Origin: Chrysochromulina tobinii
Taxonomy: Eukaryota; Haptophyta; Prymnesiales; Chrysochromulinaceae
Assembly (NCBI GenBank): GCA_001275005.1
Contig: JWZX01002962.1
Coordinates: 1 to 24,145 of the forward strand
Length of the DNA stretch: 24,145 bases
Direction of reading: 5' to 3'
The stretch's first letter is position 1; each line of letters opens with the position of its first letter. A program made the translations under genes and the position numbers. This document shows positions 11,689 through 19,870 of this stretch, one piece after another. A model generated the notes under the pieces. That model was not told the origin of the DNA. It did no database searches and worked only from the letters and a program-made list of their open reading frames with translations.

Positions 11689-13733
11689 ATGCAGCAAGGC
11701 GGCAGCGTGCTGCTGGCGGGTGTGCGCTGCACGATCCAGTACGTGTCGAGCAAAGGAATGCTGGATCTCAAGGGCGAAGATGGCGAGGTGCACTATGGCG
11801 TGGACCCGGCAAGTGTGGAACTCATCAAAGCACCGCCAGCCATTCCAGCCGCAGGAAGCTATGTGCAGCTGGACGGTGTGCGGTGCAAGGTGCAGTACGT
11901 AAGCTCCAAAGGCCAGCTCGATCTCAAGGGCGACGACGGGGCCGTGCATTACGGCGTCGACCCGGCAAGCGTCTCCATGAGCGCCGATCAATCTGCACCG
12001 GCCGAGATCACAGCGGGCTGCACGGTGCGCTTGGACGGCACCAGCTTCAAGGTGCAGTATGTGAGCTCCAAAGGTCAGCTCGATCTCAAGTCGCTCGACG
12101 GCGAGGTGGTACAGTACGGCGTCGATCCGGCCACCGTCACAATGGAGCAGGCGCTCGCGGCGGCGCCTGCGCCCGAGCCGGCGCCGAGGCAGTACGCGTC
12201 CAACTATGGCAATAATGCGCTGATGGGCACCTCAATCACGTTGTGGGAGGGCGGACGCGGCCTCATCGTCACCGTGGTCGAGGTTGACAATGACTCTGGC
12301 AAGAACATGGTGCGCGCGCGCTATCACTGATTGCATACTGATGGCATACTGATGGCATACTGATGGCATACTGATGGCATACTGATGGCATGCTGATGGC
12401 ATACTGACGGCAAGAACCTGGTACACGCGTGCACGTCTGAGAGCGACAAGGACTGCCTCTTGATTGCATCTTGAGTGCCTATTGATTGCATCTTGAGTGC
12501 CTCTTGAGTGCCTCTTGATGGACACTTGAGTACCTCCCTCATCAGGTGCGCGTGCAGTACGCGAGCGCCGAGGCGCGAGCTGATGAGTGGATCGAGCCGC
12601 GGCGCCTCAAGCAATCTCGGCGAGTGGCCGAAATGGCCGAGGTTACAGCTCGATGGTTGAATGCATGCACGGAGGTAACAGCTCGACGGTTGAATGCATG
12701 CACGGTGAGTGAGGCGTGCATCGATGCTCCCCTCGCGGCTCTCGCGACCGGAGCCGTTACTGCTGCTGTGAAGACGGCTGTGAAGACGGCTGTGAAGACG
12801 GCTGTGAAGACCAAGAAGCGAGTGACGGTGAATCCGTTACCAGAGGGCGAGGAGGCGGAGGAGGGGACGATCCTAATTAGGGTGGTCCCCGAGTGGCGCT
12901 CAGGCAAACGCCCTTCCCCCTGAGTGCCACCGAGTGCCACTGACCATGGCCTCTTCACACCTCCCTCTGACTTCACACCTCAGGCAAACGCCCTTCCCCC
13001 TGAGTGCCACCGAGTGCCACTGACCATGGCCTCTTCACACCGCCCTCTGACTTCACACCTCAGGCAAACGCCCTTCCCCGCCGTCGGCGAGCTCTACCAA
13101 CCAAGTGGACGGTGTGCGCCGCTGATGACCGCTGATGACCGCTGATGACCGCTGATGACCACTAATGATCTCTGATGACCACTGAGTGCCACTGACCATG
13201 GCCTCTTCACACCTCCCTCTGACTGCACACCTCAGGCGTATGGGTGACGGTCGATAAGTACCCGGAGGCCCTCGCGCGCAGCTACTCGCGCGCCAGCCAA
13301 CTGGAGGAGCAAGAGAGGCAGGCGGTGCGTGATTGCCTCCGATTCGCTATGTTTGCTTCTGAGTGCCTCTGAGTGCCTCTGACTGCCTCTGATTGCCTCT
13401 GATTGCTTCTGACTGGCCGTGATTGCTCTGGATACCTCTCCTTGCTCTCCTTGATGACCTCCCTGATAACCTCCCTGATTGCTCCCCTGATTGCCTCTCC
13501 TTGCTCTCCTTGATGACCTCCCTGATGACCTCGCTCATCAGGTACGCAAGCTTGCCGAGACGCTCGGCTGCTTCGGGTGCAGCACGCGCGCTCAGCACGA
13601 CGCGCTCAGCACGACGCTCCGCCCCGCGCTCAACGGCTTCGTCACACGCTGGCAGTACGCGTGTGCCATGAGCGGCGAGGCGATGCCAGCGGCGGATGGA
13701 TGGTTGGACGAGGAGGAAGGAGCGCCGTGCTGA
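11689..13733 (+). CDS. Tudor/SH3-like triple-repeat protein, five exons
   Basis: Exons inferred: 11689-12309, 12546-12903, 13064-13111, 13236-13324 and 13542-13733, giving 435 residues; all phases agree. Residues 5-43, 56-95 and 110-150 are three near-identical units of the pattern V-LDGVRCKVQYVSSKG followed by LDLKG-DG-VHYGVDPASV, each probably a small beta-barrel. A fourth, divergent barrel (residues about 185-230) is completed only after splicing, ending VRVQYA then EWIEPRRL, a shape typical of Tudor/Agenet-like or MBT-like domains. The middle has a 33-bp in-frame duplication (EVTARWLNACT twice) and four copies of AVKT. The C-terminal 90 residues are helical, with the segment CFGCSTRAQHDALS. 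Function is unknown; a binding or adaptor protein is the safest inference. Confidence 0.7.
12310..12545 (+). other. Intron 1 of Tudor-like gene (236 nt)
   Basis: Donor AACATG|GTGCGCG, acceptor CCCTCATCAG|GTGCGCG: the first seven bases of intron and next exon are identical. It holds an array of ATACTGATGGC units (about 12335-12405) and another of TTGAGTGCC units (about 12462-12530). The donor flank (12298-12321) recurs in degraded form at 12409-12432, suggesting a nested duplication. Confidence 0.82.
12639..12816 (+). repeat. In-frame 33-bp and 12-bp tandem repeats in Tudor-like exon 2
   Basis: GAGGTTACAGCTCGATGG... (33 bp) occurs at 12639 and 12672 with two mismatches, and GCTGTGAAGACG occurs four times around 12769-12816. 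Both keep the frame and encode EVTARWLNACT and AVKT repeats. Confidence 0.85.
12904..13063 (+). other. Intron 2 of Tudor-like gene: GC donor, two 80-bp tandem units
   Basis: The intron is exactly two 80-nt units (12904-12983 and 12984-13063), and the following exon begins with the same 16 bases, GCAAACGCCCTTCCCC. Both units end in ACACCTCAG. The only donor in register is CAG|GCAAAC, a GC-AG boundary. Removing one or both units restores the same junction; removing both gives a frame that joins to later exons. Confidence 0.78.
12932..13235 (+). mobile_element. Three copies of a 52-nt intron 3' element
   Basis: Copies end at 12983, 13063 and 13235, each beginning GAGTGCCACTGACCATGGCC and ending ACACCTCAG. 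The 13012-13063 and 13184-13235 copies differ at two positions. The first two lie in the 80-bp tandem of intron 2; the third lies in intron 3 beside a different flank, so it was copied separately. Confidence 0.75.
13112..13235 (+). other. Intron 3 of Tudor-like gene (124 nt)
   Basis: Donor GGACG|GTGTGC, acceptor ACACCTCAG|GCGTAT. The 5' half is an array of CGCTGATGAC units. The last 52 nt (13184-13235) match the 3' element of intron 2 with one or two mismatches, so the two introns share a common element. Confidence 0.75.
13325..13541 (+). other. Intron 4 of Tudor-like gene (217 nt)
   Basis: Donor CAGGCG|GTGCGT, acceptor CGCTCATCAG|GTACGC. Filled with TGAGTGCCTC, TGATTGCCTC and CTTGATGACC units. 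Intron start and following exon start are similar but decayed (GTGCGT against GTACGC). Confidence 0.78.
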
Positions 13734-13815
13734 GCGCGCCGTGCTGAGCGGCGAGGCGATGCCAGCGGCGGATGGATGGTTGGACGAGGAGGGATGGGCG
13801 CCGTGCTGAGCATGG
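13671..13815 (+). repeat. 76-bp-period tandem duplication across the Tudor-like stop codon
   Basis: The segment from 13671 (AGCGGCGAGGCGATGCCAGC) recurs from 13747 with a few differences. The stop codon at 13731-13733 lies inside the first copy, so the second copy is a non-coding duplicate of the gene's 3' end. Confidence 0.85.
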
Positions 13816-14136: not shown

Positions 14137-15576
14137 ATGCATGCGCCGAAAATCCAAAGTTCGCACATCTCGCTGGCTCCGGGCGGATTGCACGGGCCAC
14201 GGCGTCTCACCTCTCTCACCTCTCCACTATCCTCTTCCGATTCGATGGTGCATAAGCGCTGGAAGCCCGCAGCCTGCGAGTTCTGCAACGAATCGTCGTC
14301 TTCACGATTGCCACCGTCTTCGGCAGCCGATCGATACGCTGTGTTGTTCCGCGGCGAGGCGTACAGGTGGGGATGCGATGCGCGCGGCGTGCAGCTCCAG
14401 CAACTCGCCTTCGCATCGCAGCTGTCCAACATCGTCGAGCCGCTGGCGAAAAGTGGCCGCACGGTCAAGGTATTCCTCACGGTCGACGACTGGCGCACGT
14501 GCCGTTCGAACACTACGACGCTGTTCAACGCGAGCACGGCCATCTCGCGGCTTGTCAGAGCCGTCGCTCCCGCGCAGCTTGCGACGCTCAAGTCGCTCCC
14601 TGGGGTTCGTGACCAGCCCGACGGGATCATGAAGGCGCTCAAAGAGTACCTGCCCTCCTCACTCGCCTTCGAGTTCCTTATCATCACGCGGTATGACGTG
14701 CGGCTGCTCACGCCGATCACATCGTGGGCTTGCTACGGTGACCGCGATCGGAGCAGATCTGATTGCATCTGATTGCATCCGATTACCGTTGATTGCATCC
14801 CTCATCAGGCGACCGCGATCGGATCAGCGCCGCATCAAAGTGCGAGCCGAGCGCCTGGGACCGCTTCAATTGCGTGGCCGACCACCTGTGGATTGTGCCG
14901 AGGCCCTACGTGCGCCCGTTCACCAAGGTGGTCGGTGCGCGCCTCAACTTATCCCATTTCACAAAGTGCTGCTACAGCAAGAGATGTCTTCACAAGGCGG
15001 GCCACGGGTGCTACAATGTGCTTGCGCATGTGCTCACGCCGGCGGCTGTGGGGTTCTGCTGGCCGCAGCCGGCGAGGAGCGTGGCCGAGCCGAACGCCAA
15101 TTACCACTGATGACCTCTGATGACCTCTGATGACCTCTAATTACCTCTGATGACCTCTCATTACCTCTGATGACCTCAGGAGCGTGGCCGAGCCGAACGC
15201 CAATTACCAGTGCTGCGCCCACGGCACAGCGAGGGTGTCGCTCGCGAGCCTCGCCCAGATCGCACCAGGTGCAACGGGTCGAGGTGCAAGGGGGCCACTG
15301 ATTGCCGCCACTGATTGCCTCTGATTGCCTCTGATTGCCACAGGTGCAACGGGTCGAGGTGCAACCTCTGCATGCAAGCGCTCACCACGGCGCCTCGCCC
15401 TCCCCACAGGTGCAACGGGTCGAGGTGCAACCTCTGCAGACCATGCAGGTGCTCGTGGGCCATATGCTGCCTCTGCATGCAAGCGCTCACCACGGCGCCT
15501 CGCCTTCCCCACAGGTGCTCGTGGGCCATATGCTGCGTCCGTTCCGATGGAGGAGTCAATGGGGGAGGATGACTAG
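14137..15576 (+). CDS. Glycosyltransferase-like protein, six exons
   Basis: Exons inferred: 14137-14737, 14809-15076, 15180-15268, 15410-15448, 15515-15576 (plus a zero-length position between two abutting introns), total 352 residues ending MGEDD. ATG 14245 is an alternative start giving 316. The first exon shows a Rossmann-like start (YAVLFRGEAYRWG, then VKVFLTVDDW) and FEFLIITRYDVRLLTPI, a strand followed by RYD that resembles the metal-binding DxD region of glycosyltransferase-like proteins of algae. Exon 2 has ISAASKCEP, WDRFNCVADHLWIVPRPY and a Cys pair, KCCYSKRC. I do not see a clear signal peptide. The 40 C-terminal residues are low-complexity Gly/Ala and lie on the tiny last exons. 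Transfer of a sugar is an inference from the fold-like pattern only. Confidence 0.6.
14738..14808 (+). other. Intron 1 of glycosyltransferase-like gene (71 nt)
   Basis: Donor GCTACG|GTGACC, acceptor CCCTCATCAG|GCGACC. The first 19 nt of the intron (14738-14756) match the first 19 nt of the next exon (14809-14827) at 17 positions. One difference turns exon GC into intron GT, creating a canonical donor. The rest is TGATTGCATC repeats. Confidence 0.9.
15077..15179 (+). other. Intron 2 of glycosyltransferase-like gene, GA-AG boundaries (103 nt)
   Basis: A perfect 32-bp direct repeat (15075-15106 and 15178-15209) brackets TGATGACCTC units. Only one register of this 103-nt period ends in AG, and it begins with GA. 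Splicing restores the frame into the next exon; without it translation stops at 15108. Confidence 0.75.
15269..15409 (+). other. Introns 3 and 4 of glycosyltransferase-like gene, abutting
   Basis: Bases GTGCAACGGGTCGAGGTGCA occur three times (15269, 15344, 15410). The first interval (75 nt) carries TGATTGCC repeats and ends in CCACAG; the second (66 nt) carries a different body and ends in CCACAG. Both can be removed together or in steps to give the same exon junction, CCAG|GTGCAACG. Confidence 0.85.
15366..15514 (+). mobile_element. Two copies of a 44-nt introner-like element
   Basis: Copies at 15366-15409 and 15471-15514 begin CTCTGCATGCAAGCGCTCAC and end TCCCCACAG, with one C/T difference. 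Each lies between direct repeats unrelated to the other's: 29 bp (15344/15410; 22 bp if the element-like CTCTGCA is excluded) and 22 bp (15449/15515). The element supplies the acceptor and the duplicated target supplies the donor. No coding capacity or terminal inverted repeat is visible. Confidence 0.8.
15449..15514 (+). other. Intron 5 of glycosyltransferase-like gene (66 nt)
   Basis: Donor ATGCAG|GTGCTC, acceptor CCCCACAG|GTGCTC. Its first 22 nt equal the first 22 nt of the last exon exactly. Its remaining 44 nt (15471-15514) match the last 44 nt of intron 4 (15366-15409) with one mismatch. Confidence 0.9.
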
Positions 15577-17168: not shown

Positions 17169-18470
17169 ATGGCCATTCTCTCATATGCGTCTGTCGCCGA
17201 GGCGCTCTTCTCAGGCGATGCCATGTCGCACGTGCGGACCGCCGCCTATTTTGCCTCCTTCCTCGGCTGTCTCTTCATTGTTCTGCACCAATTTCCATGG
17301 CGCAGCAGGGCGGCGCTCGTCATGCCCTACTCCTTGGCCGCACTCGTGTGCACGTGGCGCCTGATCCTTCTCTTCTTCGTGGAGCACACGCAGCGCTATG
17401 CGGCGCACCCGGACCCACCGAATCTCTTCGTCGAGGCGTACGTGCTCGTGTGTGACGCTCCCGCGGGCTGGTGGTGGACCAACATCCTACTCGTGTGGGT
17501 GACCGTGGCGTGCCCGATGGTGCACGCCGAGGCGACGCGTCGCGGCATGCCACCTTCGGTGGTGCTCGCGTACATTATCGTTGCCTTCTTGGGTGCGGTC
17601 AGCCTCGCATTCCCGCCCTTGCTCGCCCACCTACTCACGTTGCCAACAACACCTCGTAAGTCCGGTAAGACGTCTCTTGCTGCCGCCGCCGCGGCTGCTG
17701 CGGGTGTGAATGCTGCTGCGGGTGTGAATGCCCTATGGTGGCCTGTCTGCATAGGCGCGTCTCTACTCTCGATTGTCGTGTTGCCATGTTCGGTGGCCTT
17801 GTCACGCCCAATCTTCGTCCTCGCGCTCGTGATCGTCCACGTCGTGCTCGCTCTGCCTTTCATGCGGGCGGCAATAGCCACGCGCTCACCCAAAGATGGC
17901 AACTCACCCTCGGATGACATCTCTGTACTGGGCGCCCGTGGCTATCGGCTTCTCGCGTTCACATCGGCCGTCCTGCATGTTGGCTCGACGGCTGCCGCGG
18001 CCCTGTCGCTGGGTATTGCCACGTCAGCACCCATGGATGTGGGCAGCCGGCTGTGGGAACTTCTTGGCCTCCTCCGTGCCGCCTTCAACCGGAATGTGTG
18101 TGTGCAGCCGCAGTCTGATGACCTCTGATGACCTCTGATTGCCTCCCTCATCAGGTGTGCCAGCATCTCCATCTCCATCGATGCCATCCTCTGATGACCT
18201 CTGATGACCTTTGATTGCCTCCCTCATCAGGTGTGCCAGCAGTCCATCTCCATCGATGCCATCCTCTCAAGCGCCGCGGGAATCCTCTACATGCTCATCC
18301 GTGCGGGCCACGAGGAGGGCGCGCCGTCGCGGGCGCGGGCGCTTGGGTGCAGCCTGGCGAGCGTGCTGGTGGGGCCTGCGGCAGGGCTCGCGCTCTTCTG
18401 CGCGATTCACGAGGAACGGTTACAGGCCGCACGGCACGGCGACGGTCTACAAGTGAGAAAGCGGGTATGA
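17169..18470 (+). CDS. Multi-pass integral membrane protein, two exons, unknown family
   Basis: Exons 17169-18095 and 18231-18470 join in phase 0 to give 388 residues. Hydrophobic segments lie near 22-41, 48-70, 100-118, 128-155, 188-207, 209-228, 255-283, about 318-330 and 343-364, so eight or nine membrane passes. The loop after the second helix has an acidic and aromatic pattern (FFVEHTQRY, NLFVEAYV, WWWTN) of the kind seen in ligand- or lipid-binding membrane proteins. A soluble Ala/Gly loop (about 170-186) contains an in-frame 18-bp duplication (AAGVNAAAGVN). The second exon adds the final helices and a hydrophilic tail. I cannot name the family; transporter, enzyme or receptor are all open. 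Without splicing the frame ends at 18128 after NVCVQPQSDDL. Confidence 0.65.
18096..18230 (+). other. Intron of membrane-protein gene, two stacked units
   Basis: Donor near CGGAAT|GTGTGTG (GT repeats allow small shifts). CCCTCATCAG|GTGTGCC acceptors lie at 18154 and 18230. The unit 18155-18230 (76 nt) starts with a near copy of the first 37 nt of exon 2. It may be one 135-nt intron or two introns back to back (18096-18154 and 18155-18230). TGATGACCTC units fill both. Confidence 0.8.
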
Positions 18471-18550
18471 ACAGCGAGTGGTTGTTTGTGAGCGCGGGGG
18501 GAGCGCGACGAAACTGACTGACAGACTGTGAACGTGAAGGGCGCGAAGTT

Positions 18551-18973: not shown

Positions 18974-19870
18974 AGGTCTTTGCAGAGCATGCTGTCGTAT
19001 CCACCGCTAGGCCGGGCGGTATACGTGTACGGTGTATCTGTGTTCGGTGTTTGGTCGTTGCTGTAAAGGCGTACAGTACGTCAGTACCCGCGTACGGGGT
19101 CCAACAGCACTTCCTTTTGTTGACTACGTACTAGTTATGGAAGCTACACTTACGCAGTGCCCTCTGCACCGCGGCCTTGGCACCTCCGATGGCCGCAGCG
19201 CGGGCGTCACACCCGGTAGCGGGCTAGCGGCGCCTGGCCCTGTGGCCTTACTCTATTTTACCTGTCGGGCCCTGCACAGCGCGGCGCACTTTTTTGACCT
19301 AGGGGGACCTTCCCACTACTCAGGTAATTACCTCATAGGCTTTGAACACTGTGGGGCGCACTTTTTTGACCTAGGGGGACCTTCCCACTACTCAGGTATT
19401 TACCTCATAGGCTTTGAACACTGTGACCCAGCGCCGCACGTACATGTAACGCCCACGGCCTTGCGCCTTCCACGGCCCAGGGCCGGAGATAGCGCGCAAG
19501 TCGCCAAGTCCCCGAACCGAACGTGATACGCCTCATCAGAGGCCCTGATGGAACGGGACAGGTGCACGACAGTCCGCCGATTTCCTGGATCCCGCCCGCC
19601 CCGCGGACGTGCCCGAAATCAGCACAAGGAAACAAGGATCTCCTTATCTCCGGCTGGCAAGTATGCCAGATGCACGATCGTCTTGGTCAGCATGCGAGCC
19701 GACCTAACAGAAGCAGTACAGGGTCAGGGTCAGGGCAGGTGGGACGCCGGCGATGCACTAATTTAAATGAATCAGCCTATTGAATTGCAATCAAGTTGTA
19801 ATGAAATCCTCGCGATCACGGCGACCTGCGGCGACTCCGTGTTTTGGCTTTCATCCCATCTCACTTTCGG
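18974..19870. other. Intergenic with a 72-bp tandem duplication
   Basis: About 900 bp without a convincing coding frame. It should contain the 3' UTR of the DUF4267-like gene and the promoter and leader of the large gene that follows. The main structure is the tandem repeat at 19284-19425. A GGTCAGGGTCAGGG stretch lies near 19721. No tRNA, 5S rRNA or spliced-leader sequence was recognised. Confidence 0.5.
19284..19425. repeat. 72-bp tandem duplication in non-coding DNA
   Basis: The unit GCGCACTTTTTTGACCTAGG...ends in TTTGAACACTGTG. Copies at 19284-19355 and 19356-19425 are almost identical (GTAATT against GTATTT inside). Each contains CTACTCAG|GTA, an AGGT at which a tandem duplication could create a GT-AG intron of 72 nt. 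Confidence 0.9.

Follow-up and report, generated by a model that had tools for sequence, protein, structure and literature searches.

Several kinds of introner, neointron and mobile-element insertion resemble in part the introns reported here, and we describe them as they are given in the passages of the papers cited. In the introner survey, target duplications measure 3-9 bp, and one type takes its donor from the duplicated target (PMC9860276). Introners of that type are like the present ones in that similar introns lie in unrelated genes, the element carries the 3' splice site, the duplication supplies the 5' splice site (a case described for Symbiodinium microadriaticum) and the coding sequence is restored, as we predict here (PMC9860276). 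The same survey covers Chrysochromulina sp. introners, which share the haptophyte host and have duplications without inverted repeats but differ in that the duplications are 4 bp and the element carries the 5' splice site (PMC9860276). Daphnia neointrons also have a direct repeat of exon end and exon start at opposite intron ends, and they vary by presence and absence in populations, but their repeats measure 4-12 bp and the passages cited describe no such recurrent element (PMC4202315). In tandem genomic duplication, too, the intron start equals the start of the downstream exon, with AGGT serving as both splice sites (PMC3443670; potato, PMC4974935), but the intron as characterized there is the duplicated exon itself (PMC3443670), whereas here a foreign element stands between the copies. 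The introner elements of another protist, Amoebophrya, share the non-canonical donors and border direct repeats and differ in that the direct repeats are 3-5 nt long and accompanied by inverted repeats of 8-20 nt (PMC7789003). A rotifer Penelope element closes its 5' junction by microhomology, as LINEs do according to work cited in the same paper; such insertions share variable duplications, 5' truncation and 5' junction microhomology with ours but have duplications of 8-10 bp (PMC3846280), and the elements described below are far too short to code. In the single-celled alga studied here, many recent introns appear to stem from short mobile pieces of about 24-70 nt that inserted into genes and duplicated about 13-47 nt of their landing site, each intron thereby taking its first part from the exon downstream. 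Judging by a limited literature search short of a full check, duplications of 13-47 bp are apparently unreported.

The window, that is, the whole stretch of 24,145 nucleotides analysed, is one complete contig (C1803) of the genome that was searched (53.15 Mb in 2253 contigs). We use T for a duplicated target, T5 for its 5' copy, E for the element, and F1 and F2 for the two element families. The host gene (14245-15576, plus strand, as are all its features) was called glycosyltransferase-like in the earlier note; we found 14 homologs, and a Pfam search with exon 1 returned no family. Unspliced, the frame is interrupted by several stops, and removal of four T5+E units leaves a single frame of 316 amino acids ending in TAG at 15574-15576. 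Intron A opens with T5 at 14738-14756 (GTGACCGCGATCGGAGCAG), the predicted source of its 5' splice site, which is identical at 17 of 19 positions to the 3' target copy at 14809-14827, the start of the next exon; between them lies a 52-nt F1 element (14757-14808) whose 3' end is CTCATCAG; the F1 3' motif is found genome-wide. Insertion B has a 32-nt 5' target copy at 15075-15106, identical at 32 of 32 positions to its 3' copy at 15178-15209, and a 71-nt array of F1-type 10-bp repeats at 15107-15177. Its frame-restoring intron would be 15077-15179, with GA..AG ends, as no GT stands in the register that restores the coding sequence. This need for a GA donor counts against our preferred reading.

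Composite intron C carries two elements. Its first target copy (15269-15289, 21 nt) is identical at 21 of 21 positions to 15344-15364 and is followed by an element of F1-like repeats at 15290-15343 with the 3' end GATTGCCACAG. The second target copy (15344-15372, 29 nt, the last 3 nt overlapping the F2 core) matches the 3' copy at 15410-15438, the start of the next exon, at 29 of 29 positions; the F2 element at 15370-15409, with its core from GCATGCAAG and the 3' end CCCCACAG, is 98% identical to that of intron D. Intron D consists of a 22-nt 5' target copy (15449-15470), identical at 22 of 22 positions to the 3' copy at 15515-15536, and a 44-nt F2 element at 15471-15514. The earlier note had reported these five direct copies between 14738 and 15514 and counted five introns. 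All five are present with the identities it gave, and in every case 0 of 1000 shuffles of the exon start align equally well (the second pair was compared from 15077/15180). The five insertions make four introns, since the best reading of 15269-15409 is a single composite, T-E1-T-E2-T, with one target common to an F1-like element and an F2 element.

Both families recur throughout the genome. F1 is built from imperfect 10-bp repeats of the type CTGATTGCCT and has the 3' end CTGATTGCCTCCCTCATCAG; the 21-mer formed by this end and the next G has 560 exact copies, 284 and 276 by strand (reversed control, 0). The F2 core is the 24-mer GCATGCAAGTGCTCACCACGGCGC, with 461 exact copies, 235 and 226 by strand (reversed control, 0). 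This core often follows a few pyrimidine-rich bases, and in introns it is succeeded by a variable stretch and a tail like CTTCCCCACAG, made up of pyrimidines and CACAG. Queried with the 66-nt F2 intron of the window (intron D), the genome returned 46 matches outside the window among the best 40 of 89 candidates; the matches listed are 86-100% identical over about 40-50 nt, and 45 of the 46 reach the last base of the query and begin at its base 15-27. The first part of F2-family introns is private to each locus, because it is a copy of the following exon. Element size without T is 31-68 nt at 47 of 58 introns measured (full range, 31-153). In intron copies the 3' end of the element is constant and the 5' end is ragged; tail-less F2 copies end at GGCGC(C). 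Inverted similarity of at least 6 nt between the element ends occurs in 0 of 31 F2 elements and in 6 of 27 F1 elements, compared with 1.1% in shuffles; terminal inverted repeats of that length belong to introners of the DNA-transposon type and are not a requirement for every introner. The RNA fold of one F2 element was no better than those of its shuffles (z 0.02). A longer 5' extension, GAACCTAAGATGGA, has five copies, all of which also match the F2 query, and no exonic source was found for it. The motif GCATGC is at most slightly enriched in the sampled stretches (162 versus 138 expected).

F1 and F2 fit the broad sense of the word introner, and they depart from the described families in duplication length and in end-to-end similarity. 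For the survey, similarity had to start no more than 5 exonic or 10 intronic bases from either intron end (PMC9860276), and 45 of the 46 F2 matches listed become similar only from intron base 15-27 on. Targets of 13-47 bp here stand against 3-9 bp in the introners of the survey, and F2 is without terminal inverted repeats (PMC9860276). By the account given there, low-complexity families were removed, so that F1, which is of low complexity, would be filtered, and the similarity between our introns misses the 5' end (PMC9860276). The F2 core also differs from those introners in that it enters exons without a 3' splice site (PMC9860276). Because of the low-complexity filter and the rule of similarity at both ends, as stated in the parts of the survey cited, this class may be uncounted elsewhere (PMC9860276).

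The duplication of the target was compared with chance at sites selected by the 3' motif or by similarity to the F2 intron of the window, so that the counts describe such sites and are not a rate over all introns of the genome. With one site per distinct exon start, 98 F1 and 52 F2 sites had enough flank (from 108 and 58 found). A copy was called from the best ungapped upstream match of the exon start at a score of at least 12, at which copies shorter than 12 bp are invisible. An upstream copy is present at 50 of 98 F1 and 40 of 52 F2 sites, as opposed to 13 of 1926 and 1 of 1007 swapped exon starts; with both families pooled, 90 of 150 motif-selected sites and 14 of 2933 swapped pairs have a long copy. 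No strong ungapped copy is present at the remaining 60 of 150 sites, some of which show one that is visibly decayed or gapped and others none, and we count these sites against the preferred reading. At the 68 simple insertions with a copy, T measures 13-60 bp and its two copies are identical in 37. It measures 13-47 bp, with a median of 23, at the 52 sites that are left when T of 50 bp or more, elements shorter than 25 nt and sites with an element end as the left flank are dropped. The left boundary of T is CAG|GTGCG, with G|GT at most sites; no clear motif marks the right one. Both families have more microhomology at the 5' junction than expected: 2.72 versus 1.07 nt for F2 at the 25 of 31 sites that could be used, a value reached by 0 of 200 permutations, and 1.95 versus 1.16 nt for F1 at 20 of 27 sites, reached by 2 of 200. 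At the 3' junction, microhomology assessed at base -4 by comparison between the families did not attain significance (P 0.09), which is a point against the preferred reading. Direct repeats were also surveyed without regard to motif in 20 stretches of 10 kb, and AG|G[TC] marked where the second copy begins in 66 of 409 pairs (mirror control, 28); this survey, in which coding tandem repeats (L016) and long minisatellites (L014) predominated, is not used as evidence.

To assess coding strand and frame, we took 53 long frames from this genome and trained a codon model on them. Where the strand call is strong, the element lies sense to the coding strand at 29 of 30 F1 and 23 of 24 F2 sites. With weak calls included, sense falls to 59 of 74 and 41 of 55, and the antisense sites (15 of 74 and 14 of 55) count against the preferred reading. 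After removal of T5+E, the frames of the left and right exons agree at 52 of 68 sites (28 of 34 F1, 24 of 34 F2), where chance would give one third (P 4e-13). Only 31 of 68 sites have a T5+E whose length is divisible by 3 (near the chance value of about 23), and the units are therefore not kept as in-frame insertions. A test of whether the join stays open hardly discriminates, with 16 of 34 F1 and 24 of 34 F2 true joins open and 29 of 68 and 42 of 68 shifted ones, and this too is counted on the negative side. These frame data support a reading in which the target copy supplies the 5' splice site and the element the rest, so that predicted splicing would restore the coding sequence.

The homologs of the host gene point the same way. 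All 14 relatives of the spliced host protein were aligned, and 11 of them (P0004-P0007 and P0010-P0016; 42-96% identity) run uninterrupted across the insertion points A and B, so that the intron-less state is most likely ancestral, with the caveat that some database proteins could stem from transcripts. P0004 also fits the predicted product through C and D, and P0005 reads through C and D with four extra residues and other differences; P0017 departs before A and is uninformative. Two near-identical relatives, P0008 (98%) and P0009 (96%), end in ...YGDRDRIRSDCI, which is what reading into intron A would give. The residue I in their tail is the one expected from a target copy still identical to the exon, the copy in the window having changed since. 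Intron A thus appears to differ between near-identical sequences. These relatives lend good support to the earlier note's proposal that introns were gained recently by insertion with target duplication, and so does the recurrence of the same elements at sites unrelated to one another, where each has duplicated a target of its own.

The neighbouring gene (17169-18476, plus strand) holds a comparable composite intron at 18096-18230, made up of a degenerate first target (18096-18113), F1 (18114-18154), a further target (18155-18189) and a second F1 (18190-18230), with the 3' target copy at 18231-18264; spliced, its frame is open to the stop. The copy at 18155/18231 is strong (0 of 1000 shuffles as good) and the outer pair 18096/18231 marginal (25 of 1000). 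Four relatives of this gene (P0018, P0019, P0020 and P0022) end inside the intron, and two others (P0023 and P0036) read NVCQASISIDA across it, where the predicted spliced window reads NVCQQSISIDA. For both P0005 and P0020 the longest contig has 5426 bases, which, with the reading of P0020 into this intron, suggests a genomic DNA source; judging from equal size only, the two contigs may be one. The only relative of this gene with a named organism is from Prymnesium parvum (45% identity).

Three further introns of the window look older. That at 12310-12545 (plus strand) is an F1 intron with an open spliced frame and a marginal target copy (12310/12546, 39 of 1000 shuffles as good), and that at 13325-13541 (plus strand) is probably of the same kind, with no target copy above chance (13325/13542, 195 of 1000 as good). 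The third, 10596-10509 on the minus strand, is a probable older F1 intron between two exons coding for EF hands, with EF-hand frames on both sides; no target copy above chance was found at three trial donors (659, 863 and 906 of 1000 shuffles as good). Shorter or decayed pairs had been proposed for these three introns and 18096-18230. A strong copy is confined to 18155/18231 inside the composite intron, 12310/12546 is marginal, and the other two are at chance level. The broader suggestion that this is the dominant mode of intron gain across several adjacent genes is accordingly borne out in two genes, the glycosyltransferase-like one and that at 17169-18476; the shuffle tests do not extend it to the introns at 10.5, 12.3 and 13.3 kb.

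F2 insertion seems to be independent of splicing, which would then act as a filter; the loci that suggest this are few, one gene and two others that are suggestive. The gene is L012, a minus-strand frame of 1044 amino acids on the strand that scores better by codon use, which holds nine F2 cores. All nine are tail-less, eight are antisense, their targets do not start in GT, and all nine T+E offsets are multiples of three. At L149 and L152 the 24-nt core recurs every 48 bp with a T of 24, and the frames are open over stretches of only 201 and 141 bp. L150 has an F2 core with a T of 34 beside a tailed copy, and since 34 is not a multiple of three and the tailed copy adjoins, L150 may be intronic. 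Among 19 core copies in random stretches, 8 are tailed by a simple pattern, all eight of them in two contigs, and one copy scored as tail-less ends in CACGCAG. If insertion occurs regardless of splicing, the CAG|GT boundary of the introns is at least partly what splicing lets pass.

The main reading, to which we assign a probability of about 80%, is that F1 and F2 are introner-like elements with unusually long target duplications, arising and spreading in five steps. A short F1 or F2 would be copied into an exon, leaving a T of 13-47 bp on both sides in the order L-T-E-T-R that is seen at these sites. The insert would be synthesised, from an RNA or DNA template, at a staggered nick, break or stalled end, and closure would come about by annealing of the end of T with the element copy. 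Insertion would have no need of splicing, in keeping with the tail-less F2 cores in exons, which are mostly antisense. Where T happens to start with GT after a G (CAG|GTGCG), that donor and the branch-like site of the element, which we name on the assumption of a yUnAy consensus, together with its pyrimidines and CAG, would allow T5+E to be spliced out, and the original coding sequence would be restored, as coding frame and homologs suggest. Lastly, the direct repeats T may later expand to [T-E]n-T arrays; such arrays are present in the genome.

For the second step, we infer staggered synthesis and annealing from the constant 3' end, the ragged 5' end and the microhomology at the 5' junction; the ragged end and the microhomology, with the variable T, speak for primed or re-annealed synthesis at a staggered opening and against cut-and-paste. 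We give somewhat less than an even chance to the fuller proposal that a conserved unit of about 24 nt spreads by copy-in, in either orientation, duplicating 13-47 bp of target and closing by 5' annealing, so that introns are its splice-hidden insertions and in-frame exonic copies are disguised as short peptide repeats, by neither cut-and-paste nor ordinary break repair. We rank template switching and target-primed copying about level: the first accounts for the junctions equally well, the second for the constant 3' end of tailed copies but not for the tail-less ones. Template switching during DNA replication or repair (MMBIR-like), with T copied, a jump by microhomology to an element and a return upstream of T, is a tentative alternative that would need no mobile-element enzyme and would let the elements spread through their abundance and the tolerance of spliceable copies. 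The excess of 5' junction microhomology, the variable T, the right boundary without a motif and the richness of the genome in local tandem repeats all fit it, as does the left flank of L150, CACCACGCCGC, which resembles the core end CACCACGGCGC; but microhomology at the return junction has a P of 0.09 and is absent at several tail-less sites, and hundreds of copies of the same two sequences are left unexplained. We regard as possible, in equal measure, target-primed reverse transcription, in which a LINE- or Penelope-type enzyme working at a nick would copy element RNA, perhaps an excised intron, and produce 5' truncation and a long duplication of the target. LINE insertion produces variable duplications, 5' truncation and 5' junction microhomology. 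In 2025 Gozashti et al. reportedly named retrotransposons, cryptons and helitrons as sources of introners, which would make an RNA route nothing new in itself. The tailed copies, with their constant 3' and ragged 5' ends, and the variable target duplications suit this route, and the genome contains 26 reverse-transcriptase (RVT_1) matches, most in long open frames and 22 over the cut-off; 5' junction microhomology is, moreover, as in Penelope and LINEs (PMC3846280). Against it, the tail-less F2 copies, unlike LINE and Penelope insertions, have no fixed 3' end but stop at GGCGC(C), no reverse transcriptase is tied to F1 or F2, there is no special RNA fold, and the Penelope duplications given in the cited text measure 8-10 bp (PMC3846280).

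The three other accounts fare less well. The model put forward for Daphnia, in which staggered double-strand breaks capture filler DNA during their repair, would yield direct repeats from filled-in overhangs and insertions in both orientations that are independent of splicing; it is nonetheless unlikely, because the filler is repeatedly the same two families (the sites were chosen for that) and the Daphnia repeats, as reported there, are 4-12 bp (PMC4202315). Still less credit goes to cut-and-paste transposition of a non-autonomous, MITE-like introner, in spite of the short inverted similarity at F1 ends (at least 6 nt in 6 of 27, 1.1% in shuffles). A transposase would give a fixed short target duplication, but the duplications here vary from 13 to 47 bp, the element ends are ragged, and 0 of 31 F2 elements have inverted repeats of at least 6 nt. 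Most introners are thought to be of the cut-and-paste kind, according to the survey (PMC9860276). The earlier note had offered, besides insertion, tandem duplication of an AGGT-containing exon segment, with repeats expanding later in the new intron, and had called both models established in the literature; this understates the case, the introner and Daphnia papers giving duplications of 3-9 and 4-12 bp against 13-47 bp here. We reject pure tandem duplication as the origin and consider it very improbable: the [T-E]n-T arrays, the many local tandem repeats and the G|GT at most left boundaries would fit it, but the sequence between the copies is a foreign element common to unrelated loci, including a non-repetitive 24-nt core, and for F1 CTGATTGCCTCCCTCATCAG would have to arise anew at each site. 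It may explain the arrays as a secondary development.

How introns originate is a long-standing open question, and here an intermediate state is visible: the element, its duplicated target, apparently empty and filled versions of a gene, and seemingly unspliced siblings can be seen together. Because the donor would come from the target copy and the rest from the element, the coding sequence would be restored at once, which would explain why such insertions survive. With insertions recent enough to differ between near-identical sequences, a culturable relative would allow direct tests of the insertion reaction. If the copy-in proposal is true, the 24-nt unit would be an intron-birth machine of a kind that existing introner screens were built to discard.

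We also searched viral and prokaryote collections, which may lack records related to the window. IMG/VR gave no exact match for F1 or for the F2 variant with C, in a collection that may hold nothing near this genome; one contig carries the F2 core near its end (L153). Other frames of that contig look phage-like by eye, and the contig may be chimeric. The host protein had no relative in the viral search, and the F2 core was absent from the prokaryote genome contigs searched. Viral spread of the elements was considered and set aside on these results, a single, possibly chimeric IMG/VR contig with the core and no match in the other viral and prokaryote searches. In the genome itself the light-harvesting family gives 58 matches, some being pieces of the same gene, and the sampled stretches hold myosin and actin genes; with the Prymnesium parvum relative, this points to a photosynthetic alga, probably a haptophyte, as host. 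G+C content is 0.61-0.66 in the 20 sampled 10-kb stretches and 0.61 in the window, which fits one main organism.

Two loci in the host genome (G000) carry the F2 element family as arrays in which the exact 24-nt core alternates with a 24-nt target copy at a period of 48 (L149, G000:C416:3030-3230; L152, G000:C40:12640-12780). An F2 subfamily, found in the fetched stretches L120, L121, and L151 and in at least four other places, has a longer 5' extension in common, AACCTAAGATGGA.CCTGCC. This extended subfamily would represent either a less truncated form of the element or a piece of a source locus that was carried over. Nine F2 cores that lack the pyrimidine and CACAG tail lie within one long frame of L012 (2046-2994 and 2581-2604), for the most part in antisense. 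Each of them has its own duplicated target, and their offsets are divisible by three. Judging from these L012 cores, exonic peptide repeats may be a further mode of F2 spread.

The window contains additional arrays of 10-11-bp repeats of the F1 kind at 75-193, which ends in ...GGCAG|GTACGTG, and at 461-571 and 826-930, the latter two without intron assignment. Tandem duplications at 19283-19425 (72-bp units, 98% match) and 12899-13079 (80-bp units, 99% match) both have CAG at one of their unit boundaries and are possible further [T-E]n arrays of alternating target and element from other families. There is also a 76-bp duplication at 13669-13811, whose spacer contains GCGCCGTGCTGAGC; apart from one mismatch, this matches part of the F2 core in antisense. 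Outside the window, 108-bp (36-codon) repeats make up most of a 2,328-aa open frame (L016 1838-8821).

For the introns at window 15077-15179 (insertion B of the glycosyltransferase-like gene), L037, and L135, the register that restores the reading frame has GA rather than GT as its first two bases; the sequences of these introns suggest that GA..AG donors may be in use in this genome.

Reverse-transcriptase matches occur at 26 places in G000, most within long open frames of up to 3,358 codons, and are candidates for an autonomous partner of the elements. An F2 core followed by a pyrimidine tail and CACAG|GTGAG ends a 4.55-kb viral-collection contig (L153 4495-4554, IMGVR_UViG_3300027760_000958), possibly reflecting a contig chimera or an element residing in a virus.
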